This document shows, piece after piece, positions 14,975 through 19,670 of a stretch of DNA of 40,657 bases. Under the pieces are notes generated by a model that was given only the letters and a program-made list of their open reading frames with translations, did not search any database and was not told the DNA's origin. The position numbers were made by a program, and so were the translations under genes. The stretch lies in the NCBI GenBank assembly GCA_016208915.1, contig JACQXE010000030.1, positions 1-40,657 on the forward strand. The letters are read 5' to 3'. Source of the stretch: Nitrospirota bacterium (lineage in GTDB: Bacteria; Nitrospirota; Thermodesulfovibrionia; Thermodesulfovibrionales; UBA1546). Positions within the stretch are counted from its first letter, which is position 1; each line of letters opens with the position of its first letter.

Positions 14975-15050
14975 TCCCGGGTAGCTCAGCTGGCAGAGCA
15001 GGTGGCTGTTAACCACCCTGTCGGGGGTTCGAATCCCTCCCCGGGAGCCA
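14975..15050 (+). tRNA. tRNA-Asn (anticodon GTT)
   Basis: The 76-base cloverleaf has acceptor stem TCCCGGG/CCCGGGA, D arm GCTC...GAGC, anticodon arm GGTGG-CTGTTAA-CCACC with anticodon GTT, T arm GGGGG-TTCGAAT-CCCTC with usual TTCGAAT loop, discriminator G and an encoded CCA. It marks the left edge of the recombinase island. The recombinase open frame on the other strand runs into it. Confidence 0.95.
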
Positions 15051-16452
15051 TTTTGCACAATACGAACTGGGGGCTTTCGTGATTTAAAGCGGAAGTCCTT
15101 TGTTCTTTTTGAGTCTTTTTATCCCCGCCCATCCCGACCCCATTTGGAAGAACGGCATTTTTAAAAACGCCAAAATCAGTTGAATAATAAAGATTTATTT
15201 GAATGTCAGATTTTGAATAAAGAATATTTTTGATGAATTTTTTCGCCCAAAGATTCTTTTCAATTCCTCTTTTTTCAGAGATGCCTTTTACAAATAGTTG
15301 AAGGGTTTGCCCGAAAATTTCAGGGGATATTTTTGAGGACTCGGAGCATACTTGCGAAGGTTCGAGTCCCAAACGGTCGCCCGATGGGGTATTATTCGCC
15401 CTGAATATCGAACTCTCGATATAATGCTTATCAAGGGATATTCTTTCGAGATTCTGAAAGACGTAGTCTTCTAATCTGTCTGCGCTGACCTGTTTCGTTC
15501 CGCAACTATCCCAATCTCTTTGCAATGTCTTTGTACAGCGATAGTAGTAATACCTTGTTAACTTGCCCTGTTTCCTTTTGTTAGTATGACAGGGCGTCAT
15601 ATGTAAATCGCACTCCTTACATTTAACCAGACCTGCTAAGGGATAATTTTTATACACTCTCAGAGTTCGTATTCTTTTCTTGTGTATCTCTTGAGCTAAA
15701 TCGAACATGTCCTCGGAGATAATTGGTTGATGCAGTCCTTGTGAGAACTTGCCAGCATATTTAATCTTTCCGGTATAGACAGGATTTCTCAGAATATGAG
15801 AAATTGCACTTTTTGAGGAAGCAAGCCCTTTTCTATCTTTGATACCCTTGTTTTTCAGTTCGTCATAAACTTTAAAAGAAGAACGGGATGTAATATATCT
15901 CTCATAAATATCTTTGACGATTTGTGCTTCTTTCTCATCAATAATTAGTTTCTTATTTTCTGATTTATAGCCAAAGGGAACAATACCACCGTTCCACATG
16001 CCTTTTTGAGCACGCTGAAGCATTTTATCTTTTGTCCTTTCGCTGGCAAGTTCTCTCTCAAATTGAGCAAAGGTGAGCATGATATTTCTAAGAAGCCTGC
16101 CTGATGGCGTCGAAGTATCAAACCGTTCAGTTACAGAAATAAAATCAACACCATGCTTTTCAAATAGTTCGATAAGCTGATAAAAATCTTTTGGTGATCT
16201 CGTCAGGCGGTCAATCTTATATGAAATGACAAGGTTGATTTTATTCTGTCTTATGTCATTGAGCATATCAGTTAAAGCAGGTCGGTTTATGTTGGCTCCT
16301 GTGAATCCTGCATCAGAATAGAGTTTAAAGATTTCCATATTTTCTTGACTATTAATGAATGACCTGATTTTAGCTTCCTGAGCTTCGCAAGAATTAAACT
16401 CAACCTCAGCCTGATTATCCGTGCTTACACGTGTATAGATGGCACATTTCAT
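14986..16452 (-). CDS. Large serine recombinase at tRNA-Asn
   Basis: The 488-codon frame begins MKCAIYTRVSTDNQAEVEFN, with catalytic serine in YTRVSTD (residue 9). The resolvase domain continues to about residue 150 (DRLTRSPKDF, GRLLRNIMLTFAQFERE), then the recombinase DNA-binding domain (ISHILRNPVYTGKIKYAG) and a zinc ribbon with CKEC and later cysteines (about 277-325). The last 21 or so codons are the antisense of tRNA-Asn (GEGFEPPTGWLTA), a read-through typical of integrases lying on a tRNA att site. The functional C-terminus may therefore end earlier. It probably integrates or excises the island with the neighbouring ATPase gene as cargo. Confidence 0.85.
   Translation of the reverse strand: MKCAIYTRVSTDNQAEVEFNSCEAQEAKIRSFINSQENMEIFKLYSDAGFTGANINRPALTDMLNDIRQNKINLVISYKIDRLTRSPKDFYQLIELFEKHGVDFISVTERFDTSTPSGRLLRNIMLTFAQFERELASERTKDKMLQRAQKGMWNGGIVPFGYKSENKKLIIDEKEAQIVKDIYERYITSRSSFKVYDELKNKGIKDRKGLASSKSAISHILRNPVYTGKIKYAGKFSQGLHQPIISEDMFDLAQEIHKKRIRTLRVYKNYPLAGLVKCKECDLHMTPCHTNKRKQGKLTRYYYYRCTKTLQRDWDSCGTKQVSADRLEDYVFQNLERISLDKHYIESSIFRANNTPSGDRLGLEPSQVCSESSKISPEIFGQTLQLFVKGISEKRGIEKNLWAKKFIKNILYSKSDIQINLYYSTDFGVFKNAVLPNGVGMGGDKKTQKEQRTSALNHESPQFVLCKMAPGEGFEPPTGWLTATCSAS
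15123..15141 (-). other. Potential G-quadruplex in recombinase 3' end
   Basis: On the minus strand this reads GGGGTCGGGATGGGCGGGG, four G-tracts with loops of two, two and one bases, inside the recombinase coding strand. Its end (TGGGCGGGGATAAAAA) resembles the tails of the quadruplex-duplex repeats at 28341 and the motif at 18467. No bridging stem is evident. Confidence 0.5.
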
Positions 16453-16510: not shown

Positions 16511-17659
16511 TTATCCCTTCCTTAATAGAAATTTCTCTAAGAGAGGTAAGGTGAACCTGTATTTACCCCTTCCTACTCTGAATATCAACCCTTTCTCCAT
16601 AAGGCTTATCAATATCTGATTGAGGTAGTTTTTATCTATTTTTGCCTTTTCTCTTAATTCGGAAAATCTTATTTCCGGTGCCAATCTTGCCATTTCAAAA
16701 AGTATTTTCTGTTCACTGTCCGAAGCTTTATTAAATCTACCTGCAAAAAAACTTTCATCCAATTCTTTTAAGAGCAATGGATACATCTCTTTGAAATCTT
16801 TTAATCCTATTTTTTTCTTGGGGACGTTCTGGATCAGATAATAAGGATAGAATTGCAAGAAATATGGATAGCCGAGGGTTTCTTCTGTAAGGGCATCAAT
16901 CAACTCATTTGTAAAATTAATATCTGAGTTTTTCAAAGGCAACATTATAGCCTTTTGAGAAGCCTCTTTTGAGAGATTTCCTATGCTTTTTACTGTAAAC
17001 ATCCTTTCTGAATAGGTCTTGGTTTTAACAAGATTAGGAAAGAGTTGAGGCAGCCCTGAAAGCACAAGATAATATCTTAACCCTTCCTGTTGAACATGAG
17101 AAAAACTTTCAAGGAGTAAAGAGAGAGGATGGTTGTCAGCTATCTTACCATCTTCAATAAAATGAAACTCGTCATAGAGAAAAACCAGACCATTGTATCC
17201 TGAATCAAGAATAGATTCATAAACATCCGTTAATACAGCTTCCAACCTATCTCCAAGTGTCCCTTTATATTTTTGGATAAGAACAGAAATAAAATCTCCC
17301 TCGATATCTTCCTTATATCCTCTACCAAAACCTATTAGAGGCTTCTTCAGTTTTTTCGCCAGAGAGATTCCCTTTGTCTTTGCGATAATATCTGTCAAGA
17401 GGGCATTTAAAAATTCACTCTCATGATTGAGTTTGATATTAAACTCGCGTTTCACAAGGAGCCATTTTTTCTTGGTGCATATCTCCTCAAACTTTCTTAA
17501 CAAAACTGTCTTGCCTGTTCCACGTATTCCTGAAAGAACCAGATTTTGTGGAAGCGACAGTGCAGAACTCAAGGATTTCTCAAACCCGAGGATTTCATTC
17601 TCTCTACCTGCCAGATAAGGTGGCATTATTCCATTACCTGGACGAAATGGATTGCTCAT
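16511..17659 (-). CDS. AAA ATPase with C-terminal winged helix
   Basis: This 382-residue protein begins with an N-terminal Phe-Pro-rich lead and a Walker A motif GIRGTGKTV near residues 45-53. Walker B is LVFLYDEFHFIE near residues 150-160. A C-terminal winged-helix-like segment follows (about 310-380, LREKAKIDKNYLNQILISLM). The family of ATPases with orc1/cdc6-like or archaeal-ATPase architecture often accompanies mobile elements and toxin or defence cargo. It sits 59 bases upstream of the recombinase and in the same orientation, so it is likely island cargo. Its substrate is unknown. Confidence 0.75.
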   Translation of the reverse strand: MSNPFRPGNGIMPPYLAGRENEILGFEKSLSSALSLPQNLVLSGIRGTGKTVLLRKFEEICTKKKWLLVKREFNIKLNHESEFLNALLTDIIAKTKGISLAKKLKKPLIGFGRGYKEDIEGDFISVLIQKYKGTLGDRLEAVLTDVYESILDSGYNGLVFLYDEFHFIEDGKIADNHPLSLLLESFSHVQQEGLRYYLVLSGLPQLFPNLVKTKTYSERMFTVKSIGNLSKEASQKAIMLPLKNSDINFTNELIDALTEETLGYPYFLQFYPYYLIQNVPKKKIGLKDFKEMYPLLLKELDESFFAGRFNKASDSEQKILFEMARLAPEIRFSELREKAKIDKNYLNQILISLMEKGLIFRVGRGKYRFTLPLLEKFLLRKG

Positions 17660-17679
17660 TTTTCTCCTTGTATATAATT

Positions 17680-17728
17680 GTATAGTTAAATTTACTACAC
17701 TATACTACACTTAATTTTATCCTGTCAA
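17680..17728 (-). promoter_or_regulatory. Promoter with palindromic operator for the ATPase gene
   Basis: On the minus strand TTGACA (17728-17723) and TATAGT (17704-17699) are 18 bases apart. The -10 box is one arm of an inverted repeat (GTATAGT at 17705-17699, AACTATAC at 17687-17680) and overlaps the direct repeat TGTAGTA...TGTAGTA. TACTACAC also occurs in the recombinase leader near 16485-16492 on the opposite strand. A repressor covering the -10 box is plausible. Confidence 0.5.
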
Positions 17729-17823
17729 GAGTTTTTCTTAAGTTTGTCAAACCAATTTAGAAATGTCCTTCAAATTAAATTGCTTCCTTCCTTTTTTTTC
17801 AGGGAGTCCACTGGGGGACGGAA

Positions 17824-17930
17824 GGGGCTGGCAAGTCTTAGCTGGCGATGGACTTGCCATAGTGTGAGCTTGTCGAACTATTAGCAAGGACTATGACAGA
17901 TAAGTCTTGACAGCATGGGTGGGCAGAGGG
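17824..17930 (+). repeat. Quadruplex-duplex repeat, copy D
   Basis: A GGGG tract (17824-17827) leads into a stem GCTG-G-CAAG (17827-17835), closed by CTTG-A-CAGC (17906-17914) with an internal G.A mismatch. It is followed by ATGGGTGGGCAGAGGG (17915-17930). The apical part holds the local hairpin GGCAAGTC/GACTTGCC (17830-17837/17851-17858), which competes with the outer stem, and REP-like copy r1. The arrangement matches copies A-C at 28272-28901; D is the most diverged copy. Confidence 0.65.
17859..17881 (+). repeat. REP-like stem-loop r1
   Basis: ATAGT and ACTAT arms (17859-17863, 17877-17881) enclose a GAGCTTGTCGA loop (17866-17876). It lies in the apical part of quadruplex-duplex copy D. 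Confidence 0.6.
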
Positions 17931-17946
17931 ATATGGATAAAATTCA

Positions 17947-17993
17947 CGGCTAAGTGTTGCTTTACGTCTGTTTTGTAAGGCAGCTCTTAGCCG
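17947..17993 (+). repeat. Inverted-repeat hairpin
   Basis: CGGCTAAG-T-GTTGC (17947-17960) pairs with GCAGC-T-CTTAGCCG (17980-17993): 13 pairs with a central T.T mismatch and a 19-base loop. It lies between copy D and the recombinase remnant, in the stretch 17731-18008 that holds no gene I recognise. Confidence 0.6.
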
Positions 17994-18008
17994 AGCTTCC
18001 GAATGAAT

Positions 18009-18088
18009 GGCAAACCCTTCAACTTTTTGTAAAAGGCATCTCTGAGAAAAGAGGAATTGATAAAAATCTGTGGGCGAAAAAATTCATC
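18009..18088 (+). pseudogene. Remnant of a serine recombinase 3' end
   Basis: These about 80 bases encode [20 protein letters not shown] then WAKKFI, almost identical to residues about 390-415 of the intact recombinase at 14986-16452, but on the opposite strand and about 2.6 kb away. At the DNA level the match is close to 90 percent by eye. Both ends stop abruptly. It is the scar of a second, related element that sat in this locus in inverted orientation. Confidence 0.8.
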
Positions 18089-18110
18089 ATGGTTCGACGT
18101 TGCTCACCAT
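18089..18110 (-). repeat. REP-like stem-loop r2
   Basis: On the minus strand ATGG...CCAT arms enclose GAGCAACGTCGA (loop motif GAGC-N3-GTCGA). It begins where the recombinase remnant ends. With r3 it forms a larger inverted repeat of about 19 bases (17 matching) around a 38-base spacer. Confidence 0.65.
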
Positions 18111-18148
18111 TTCCAAATACAGATCTATTAGATATAATGTCATACTGG

Positions 18149-18170
18149 ATAGTGAGCAAGGTCGAACTAT
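18149..18170 (+). repeat. REP-like stem-loop r3, containing the GIY-YIG start
   Basis: ATAGT (18149-18153) and ACTAT (18166-18170) arms enclose GAGCAAGGTCGA. The ATG of the GIY-YIG gene is at 18169-18171, so its first two bases are the end of the stem. No Shine-Dalgarno site is seen between stem and ATG. Confidence 0.7.
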
Positions 18171-18447
18171 GTGGACTGTATATATTCTCAGGTGCAGCGA
18201 TGGTTCATTTTACGTTGGATTGACAAATGACTTAAAACAGCGTATTCGAGATCATCAATCCGGCGATGGAGCTCAATATACACGTGCACGCCTTCCAGTT
18301 AGCCTCAAATATTCAGAAGGATTCAAATCAAAAAAAGAAGCAGAGAATCGTGAGCATCAATTGAAACGTTGGTCAAAAGCAAAGAAAGAAGCACTTATAA
18401 AGAGCGATATGGCAAAATTGCGACAGTTATCTCGAAATAAATCCTGA
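18169..18447 (+). CDS. GIY-YIG nuclease of the UPF0213/YhbQ type
   Basis: A 92-residue single-domain GIY-YIG protein, [20 protein letters not shown]: the two-strand signature reads VYI...FYVGLT, the conserved arginine is in [11 protein letters not shown], and the metal-ligand glutamate is in [16 protein letters not shown]. Such proteins cleave DNA or RNA; this small class has no firmly known role. The longer frame from 18070 is rejected because its first 33 codons are recombinase remnant and REP sequence. The start codon lies in REP r3 and the stop TGA (18445-18447) in REP r4, so the gene is exactly bracketed by repeats. Confidence 0.88.
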
Positions 18448-18461
18448 GCTTGTCGAAGGGT
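18441..18461 (+). repeat. REP-like stem-loop r4, containing the GIY-YIG stop
   Basis: CCT (18443-18445) and AGG (18457-18459) arms enclose GAGCTTGTCGA; the gene's stop codon is formed by the T of the left arm and the first two loop bases. The loop core matches r1 exactly and r2/r3 with one substitution block. Confidence 0.7.
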
Positions 18462-18483
18462 TAATATGGGCGGCGGGAATATT
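18461..18483 (+). repeat. 23-base G-rich motif shared with 28678-28700
   Basis: The 23 bases around TATGGGCGGCGGGAATATT are identical, in reverse complement, to 28678-28700. The tail of quadruplex-duplex copy A (TGGGCGGGGGAAAATATTC) is similar. The shared motif links the two structured non-coding clusters, 10 kb apart. Confidence 0.75.
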
Positions 18484-18503
18484 TTTATAAGTCTTTATTT
18501 TTC

Positions 18504-18532
18504 TTTGATTTTTCTGATAAAGTAGTTATAAT
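18504..18532 (+). promoter_or_regulatory. Candidate promoter of the transporter locus
   Basis: TTTGAT at 18504-18509 and a perfect TATAAT at 18527-18532 are 17 bases apart, 52 bases before the start of the binding-protein gene. Confidence 0.55.
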
Positions 18533-18584
18533 TTAACCAACTATTTTTACTCATAACTCTGAACTTTAAAATATGGAGGGTATT

Positions 18585-19670
18585 ATGAAAAGAATTAAGC
18601 ATAAGCCTTTAGCAGTCCTTATAGTAATTTCTCTAATCGTAGCTTCTTTGATGGTCTTTTCTTTTGGGTGTATGAAGAAAGAGGAGAAAGAGATAAAGAT
18701 AGGGGCAATATTGCCTTTGACTGGGGATTTTGCAATTTTGGGGGAGGAGATAAAAAAAGGTATTGAACTTGCTATAGAAGAAACAAAAAGTACTGGTTTG
18801 CCTTTAATCGTATTTTACGAAGATGACCAAAGCTTGTCTCCGGTGGCTGGTGTTAACGCAGCGAATAAATTGATCACTGTAAATAAAATCGATGTTGGGC
18901 TGACGATGATAGTTGAGGAATCGCGGCCTATTTCTTCATTTTTTGGAAAGAGTAAAGTTCCACTTATAGTTTTATGGGATAGTAATAAATTTATTAAAGA
19001 AGATGGTGAATATATTTTTAGCAATGGGTTTTCAACAGAAAAAGCTGGCGAGAAGATGGCAGAGTTTGCTTTTTCCAAATTAGGCTTAAGAAAGTTTGCA
19101 ATTATAAAACATGTAGACCCATGGGCTGAAATTATTTCTGAATCGGTTGAAACTAAAATTAGAAATTCGGGTGGAACAATAGTTCTTAAAGAAACTTTAC
19201 AGCCTACGGATACAGATTATCGAACTGCTATTTCCAAAATTAAAAAGGCAGGCCCCGATAGTGTTTATGTTGCATTAGTCCCCCCAAACTCTTCTCTCTT
19301 TCTAATCCAAGCTAAAGAATTAGGGGTGCGAGTTCCGCTTTTAACAGGTGATGCATTGATACAACAGGTCATTGATGCTGCAGGCAAATCAGCAGAGGGA
19401 GCTTATTTGACAAATATTTATACAGAGTCTAACAATGCGACTTTATTGACCGAGAAATATAAAAATAAGTACAAAAAAGCTCCTTTCGATATTGCCCTTG
19501 TTTCTTTCGGTTACGATGGAATAATGAAAGTTGCCGAAGCGATGAAACTTCATAAAAGAACGCTTCAAGAGGCTTTGATTTCAATTTTTGGTGAAAACCG
19601 ATCTGCCGATAGGATAGAGAAAATATATAGGATTATCAACGGAAAACCTGTAGAAGTAGAAGTTGAGTAA
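18585..19670 (+). CDS. Substrate-binding lipoprotein of a Liv-type ABC transporter
   Basis: This 361-residue protein starts at ATG 18585, set by GGAGG five bases upstream; an ATG at 18573 overlaps that site and is not used. The lipobox FSFGC lies after a hydrophobic leader. The mature protein is a type I periplasmic-binding-protein fold: IGAILPLTGDFAILGEEIKKG, then ITVNKIDVGLTMIVEESRPI and TDTDYRTAISKIKKAGPDSV. It should capture a branched-chain amino acid, amide or similar small ligand for the LivHMGF components encoded from 23039 to 26255. Its ligand is not predictable here. Confidence 0.87.
   Translation: MKRIKHKPLAVLIVISLIVASLMVFSFGCMKKEEKEIKIGAILPLTGDFAILGEEIKKGIELAIEETKSTGLPLIVFYEDDQSLSPVAGVNAANKLITVNKIDVGLTMIVEESRPISSFFGKSKVPLIVLWDSNKFIKEDGEYIFSNGFSTEKAGEKMAEFAFSKLGLRKFAIIKHVDPWAEIISESVETKIRNSGGTIVLKETLQPTDTDYRTAISKIKKAGPDSVYVALVPPNSSLFLIQAKELGVRVPLLTGDALIQQVIDAAGKSAEGAYLTNIYTESNNATLLTEKYKNKYKKAPFDIALVSFGYDGIMKVAEAMKLHKRTLQEALISIFGENRSADRIEKIYRIINGKPVEVEVE

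Follow-up and report, generated by a model that had tools for sequence, protein, structure and literature searches.

Bacterial genomes commonly contain short palindromic repeats, and RAYT and other Y1 transposases are the known movers of those of the REP type. Proteins of the Ssn family are reportedly GIY-YIG nucleases that act site-specifically on single strands and come with cognate repeats (SsnA and the NTS/dRS3 repeats of Neisseria), and the Neisseria Ssn/NTS pair is said to police incoming or transferred single-stranded DNA. In RAYT-REPIN systems, palindromes are found at the transposase gene and dispersed as inverted pairs, and the enzyme subfamilies are each associated with different palindromes (PMC3116915). 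CGTC-tagged REPs, which occur mostly as inverted pairs in alphaproteobacteria, Bacteroidetes, Spirochaetes and others, come without a dedicated transposase, and the dRS3 repeats of Neisseria have been classed among them (PMC3733652); they are characterised by a CGTC tag, a stem of 8-9 bp opening with A-T pairs, a loop of 4-5 nt and a CCA tail.

The locus described here combines a small GIY-YIG nuclease gene with four hairpins, each recognised by its sequence and a match to a common core. Coordinates refer to the window, that is, the whole stretch of 40,657 nt that was analysed:

17859-17881, plus strand: hairpin r1, ATAGT(GT)GAGCTTGTCGA-ACTAT, imperfect stem
18089-18110, minus strand: hairpin r2, ATGGT-GAGCAACGTCGA-ACCAT
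18149-18170, plus strand: hairpin r3, ATAGT-GAGCAAGGTCGA-ACTAT, inverted partner of r2, overlapping the start codon of the nuclease gene
18169-18447, plus strand: GIY-YIG nuclease gene, 92 aa, of a subfamily with a WSxxKKEALI tail (PF01541, E = 2.4e-21)
18443-18459, plus strand: hairpin r4, CCT-GAGCTTGTCGA-AGG, holding the stop codon

A pattern search of the whole window for GAGCN{2,3}GTCGA returned exactly four matches, at 17866 (+), 18094-18105 (-), 18154 (+) and 18446 (+); all are packed into less than 600 bp (17866-18456). With 0.23 matches expected per window (sd 0.49) and four reached in 0 of 100 shuffles, a chance cluster is excluded, and the four stem-loops with a common GAGC-N2/3-GTCGA loop and differing arms that a first-pass annotation had reported are real. 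Their placement within 18149-18461 holds for r3 and r4, whereas r1 and r2 both lie outside this interval. The coordinates also bear out the position it gave for the two ends of the gene: the ATG (18169) takes the last two bases of the right arm ACTAT of r3 (18166-18170), and the stop codon TGA (18445-18447) is made up of the arm T and the GA of the loop of r4. Hairpins r2 and r3 form an inverted pair, in which 48 bp separate the cores and one compensated base pair distinguishes the stems (ATGGT/ACCAT versus ATAGT/ACTAT); the stem of r1 contains a 2-nt bulge, and that of r4 consists of just 3 bp and a wobble. A start codon inside a hairpin arm is peculiar to the window copy, as the nearest upstream hairpin in relatives ends at least 11 bp before the start, and overlap of a hairpin with the 3' end of the gene is also seen in some relatives. 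The exact overlap of start and stop codon with hairpins is incidental, but the association of gene and hairpins is not. Just upstream of r1, two minus-strand genes (14986-16452 and 16511-17659) encode a large serine recombinase and an AAA ATPase whose C-terminal part shows weak AbiEi-like similarity; this pair is possibly an insertion of another kind beside the hairpins.

Among 101 genomes of relatives searched initially, six genes with 45-51% identity (L010-L015) all have hairpins of the same type nearby, and most of the weaker GIY-YIG matches from the same order (L016-L031) have none. In one of the six (L011, 1177-1488), the reading frame of the homologue continues into an array of GAGC-GAA-GTCGA hairpins, which results in SEVEG-type C-terminal repeats. 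A scan of a genome collection, in which loci were picked on protein sequence alone, yielded 80 loci, spread over more than ten phyla of bacteria plus one archaeon. Around these genes the density of the strict core is 5.1 per kb in the first 50 bp and 0.06-0.09 per kb beyond 1 kb. When only GAG...CGA sites enclosed by a stem of 4 bp or more were counted, there were 156 hairpins in the 39.2 kb lying no more than 250 bp from the gene versus 18 in the 273.7 kb more than 1 kb away (4.0 versus 0.07 per kb), an approximately 60-fold enrichment beside the gene. At least one such hairpin is present at 58 of the 80 loci and, within Sphingomonas, at 38 of 46, in 31 cases on both sides, usually with the matched domain preceded at about 40 bp by a plus-strand hairpin and followed at about 30 bp by a minus-strand one; since these loci share descent, the counts do not represent independent events. 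Orthologues thus mostly carry the flanking motif pointed out in the first-pass annotation, and the motif is not equally common beside unrelated genes; it was found near none of 30 Y1_Tnp loci, and near none of those retrieved from the genome of the window. The 22 loci without such a hairpin, which include the three most divergent of the 80 (L053, L106, L110), count against the reading of gene and hairpins as one module.

The number of hairpins in a genome also follows the gene. Counting gene-side copies too, Sphingomonas genomes (121 in total) have a median of 18.5 core sites when the gene is present (n = 76) versus 5 when it was not detected (n = 45; p = 1.6e-4), and genomes of the order to which the window belongs have 10 versus 2 (p = 0.0015). 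Eight Sphingomonas genomes with at least 20 core sites and no detected gene count against the module reading. More distant plasmid-borne GIY-YIG loci (L255-L260) showed no matching hairpin in their flanks. Judged by these searches, the hairpin is a feature of one GIY-YIG subfamily.

For an analysis of covariation, every GAG-N4/5-YCGA near the gene was considered, regardless of whether it was enclosed by a stem. Stems of at least 4 bp are formed by 142 of 225 such sites near the gene versus 13 of 187 far from it, and the two loop positions S and S' hold complementary bases in 188 of the 225 (122 expected if independent) and in 62 of the 187 (54.5 expected). This covarying inner pair occurs as C-G, G-C and T-A, and the stems, with 25 distinct 4-nt arms, vary with compensation. 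The palindrome consists of a self-complementary stem of variable sequence that encloses the fixed core GAG-S-N2/3-S'-(T/C)CGA. A plausible fold of the core comprises, from the stem inwards, sheared G.A/A.G pairs (predicted from the sequence), a G-C pair, one unpaired Y, the S-S' pair and a loop of 2-3 nt. The loop subtype does not track the phylogeny of the protein: loops with a G-C inner pair are scattered on the tree and require six changes, the same as after shuffling.

The protein itself belongs to the GIY-YIG superfamily by its domain match, its fold and its conserved catalytic Tyr, Arg and Glu. Among 50 homologues, Y15, G17, H29 and E62 are invariant and Y5 and R25 nearly so, and the AlphaFold model of the 92-aa protein (pLDDT 92.8) adopts the GIY-YIG fold. 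The nearest solved structures are the UPF0213 proteins 1zg2 and 1ywl, by both sequence and fold, followed by the branched-DNA nuclease Slx1. A homing endonuclease gene would be expected within an intron or intein that occupies a conserved target; this gene stands alone between unrelated genes, and no Rfam family reaches its gathering score in 17600-18700.

Other small GIY-YIG genes were found next to other palindromes. Two genes of another subfamily (L032, L033) are flanked by GTCATTCT-GAGC-GTCA-GCGA-AGAATC hairpins (TTCT-GAGC-GTCA-GCGA-AGAA). At six loci (L030, L031, L034, L035, L037 and, in the genome of the window, L120 at G000:C76:27012), small GIY-YIG genes lie directly at the 3' ends of tRNA-Asp or tRNA-Ala genes, with palindromes and incomplete copies of the tRNA tail on their flanks; subfamily and palindrome are again different. 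A second small GIY-YIG gene in the genome of the window (L121, G000:C64:32271) has GTCATTGCGAGGAGCGGAGCGACGTGGCAATC and a related inverted sequence in its flanks, yet another palindrome family within this genome.

Evidence for mobility comes from relatives. In the 2.5-Mb genome of the window (88 contigs), a loose version of the core occurs 28 times versus 22 times for a reversed-pattern control, which is hardly above background, and the only other well-stemmed sites among those inspected were inverted pairs on contigs C5 (two copies) and C69. The hairpin family is thus small in this genome, with few clusters, and its activity there may be weak or past. The two pairs on C5 (L001, at about 310-430 and 1680-1800) are identical, with the outer ends AAAAAGTC/GACTTTTT; they are 1.4 kb apart and bracket an ATP-binding-type gene in a composite element-like arrangement. 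A genome of the same order (G031) contains about five copies of gene plus hairpins on different contigs, up to 96-99% identical, with similarity beginning tens of bases outside the first hairpin. In another genome (G103), four further sites carry hairpin pairs that match the one immediately upstream of the gene with 76-83% identity along about 140 bp, and similarity stops near the outer hairpin edges. In a third (G174), close hairpin pairs are of the plus/minus type in 31 of 31 cases and show preferred spacings of 33-34 and 53-57 bp, which corresponds to the REPIN layout. A replication-strand bias of the hairpins was rejected, as they lie in plus/minus pairs.

Presence and absence can be compared at the trmJ locus of Sphingomonas, where the gene order is nrdR, GIY-YIG, RNA methyltransferase. 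Upstream of trmJ, no stem-forming GAGC-N2/3-G-Y-CGA was found in 24 of 25 genomes without detected gene; the sole exception (L199) retains a gene remnant and one hairpin. Several of these genomes share a GAGCCRTTCGA at a constant position some 290-310 bp upstream of trmJ; this match is outside the hairpin family. The interval that measures about 30 bp in L182 is about 597 and 661 bp long in two filled loci (L183, L202); the pair L180/L181 was set aside as a clean empty site because L181 carries unrelated DNA. At trmJ, gene and hairpins are therefore present or absent together, as a unit. The same comparison was discarded for the window copy, whose neighbouring gene (18573-19670) shares no more than 30-34% identity with its homologues in the family. 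At five hsdR loci of Bacteroidota, Geobacteraceae and Verrucomicrobiota (L040, L049, L083, L093, L115), the GIY-YIG domain is inserted in frame immediately ahead of the DECH helicase motif; translated hairpins border it on either side, and the flanking domains are present. These five copies form a single clade (100/97), which rules out independent insertions and indicates one old insertion that was carried between phyla with hsdR.

From these sequence comparisons we consider it likely that the locus represents a single copy of a module of wide distribution, in which a small, catalytically intact GIY-YIG nuclease is paired with a palindrome family that it most likely recognises and that would spread, or be maintained, via nicking. 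The GIY-YIG protein is the only gene product found constantly linked to the hairpin. This constant link, the lack of a Y1 enzyme in five hairpin-rich genomes, the retained catalytic residues, the fold and the nearest structures together lead us to infer that the protein binds the hairpin, most likely in single-stranded DNA, and nicks it. When DNA becomes single-stranded during replication, transformation or transfer, the hairpin would fold and be nicked by the nuclease, and repair or recombination would then copy or insert the hairpin-bounded DNA; insertion being beyond the reach of a nuclease by itself, host repair is assumed for this step. The nuclease would in this way act as mover, the gene would spread together with its hairpins, and the shorter, REPIN-like inverted pairs would represent non-autonomous derivatives. 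The association, the joint presence or absence, the multi-copy spread and the REPIN-like pairs all favour what the first-pass annotation had suggested, namely a REP-nuclease unit or hairpins serving as substrate of the protein. That the module represents a cross-phylum class of mobile elements, in which a GIY-YIG nuclease replaces the HUH transposase and hairpin-bounded gene units as well as non-autonomous inverted pairs move via single-stranded DNA, is a serious but tentative possibility. If true, the missing enzyme of transposase-less palindromic repeats would have been found, and the hairpin partner would differ between GIY-YIG subfamilies. A gene that travels with its palindromes makes the question of the missing transposase of CGTC-tagged REPs testable, with an enzyme-substrate pair predicted from sequence alone, and structure-specific single-strand nucleases are possible tools.

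Alternatively, the hairpins might be recognition sites through which a GIY-YIG nuclease polices single-stranded DNA that comes in or is transferred, and they would be kept or spread for the benefit of the host or by recombination without the nuclease being a mover. The pairing of protein and repeat is of the same kind as that reported for Ssn, the gene looks long resident at trmJ, where it stays in many Sphingomonas genomes (open frames of about 360-450 aa), and several genomes bear hairpins without the gene. However, the spread of gene plus hairpins in several near-identical copies within G031, their presence or absence as a unit and the conserved spacing of the REPIN-like pairs fit movement. 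Each of these observations is still compatible with a policing role, but as the whole explanation we regard it as unlikely.

Movement by the nuclease also has to be weighed against movement in trans by a RAYT or other Y1 transposase, with the hairpins being ordinary REPs and the GIY-YIG gene a passenger that landed among them. The REP and REPIN layout would agree with this, and the genome of the window contains ten Y1_Tnp (IS200/RAYT-type) matches. Yet five hairpin-rich Sphingomonas genomes lack any Y1_Tnp (PF01797), so that a RAYT as mover is rejected for at least these five; the hairpin is missing from the inspected Y1_Tnp loci, and its constant neighbour is the GIY-YIG gene. This explanation is thus very improbable. 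Hardly credible, finally, are transcription terminators, regulatory RNA elements of the gene or a chance cluster. The hairpins do lie at the borders of the gene, with the stop codon inside r4, but no terminator-like site was found in 17650-18600 and no Rfam family came near its gathering score in 17600-18700; inverted pairs of these hairpins are also found well away from the gene, hairpins even occur inside a reading frame, and chance is excluded by the shuffles.

With the RAYT-REPIN system, to which the first-pass annotation had likened the locus, the module shares a gene flanked by its palindrome and dispersed inverted palindrome pairs, the latter in relatives and, in the genome of the window, only on C5 and C69. 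In contrast to RAYT-REPIN, the enzyme is a GIY-YIG nuclease and no Y1 HUH transposase (PF01797), and several hairpin-rich genomes have no Y1 gene; with the defining enzyme absent, the system works like RAYT-REPIN but is not a member of it. CGTC-tagged REPs resemble the present hairpins in the arrangement of palindromes as inverted pairs and differ by their 4-5 nt loops and 8-9 bp stems from the mismatched core and variable stem found here. In the flanks of 141 hairpins, GTC is present within 14 nt left of the core in 50, and G is preferred at position -7; CGTC and CCA tags are not clear. The present hairpins may be relatives of CGTC-tagged REPs. UPF0213 and other single-domain GIY-YIG proteins provide the closest solved structures (1zg2, 1ywl), but unlike the module most of their more distant members (L016-L031 and the plasmid loci) are not accompanied by the hairpin. 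A literature search with the hairpin sequence and for GIY-YIG in connection with REP or RAYT found no paper linking them. A pairing of GIY-YIG proteins with repeats has apparently been published for Ssn, which makes the present association less surprising. As in the Ssn pairs, a small single-domain GIY-YIG protein occurs with a repeated palindrome both near its gene and dispersed in the genome; the palindrome, with its internal GA mismatches and the core GAGS..S'YCGA, is a different one. The system is probably related to the Ssn GIY-YIG/repeat pairs; in addition, it shows multi-copy units of gene plus hairpins, their joint presence or absence and REPIN-like pairs.
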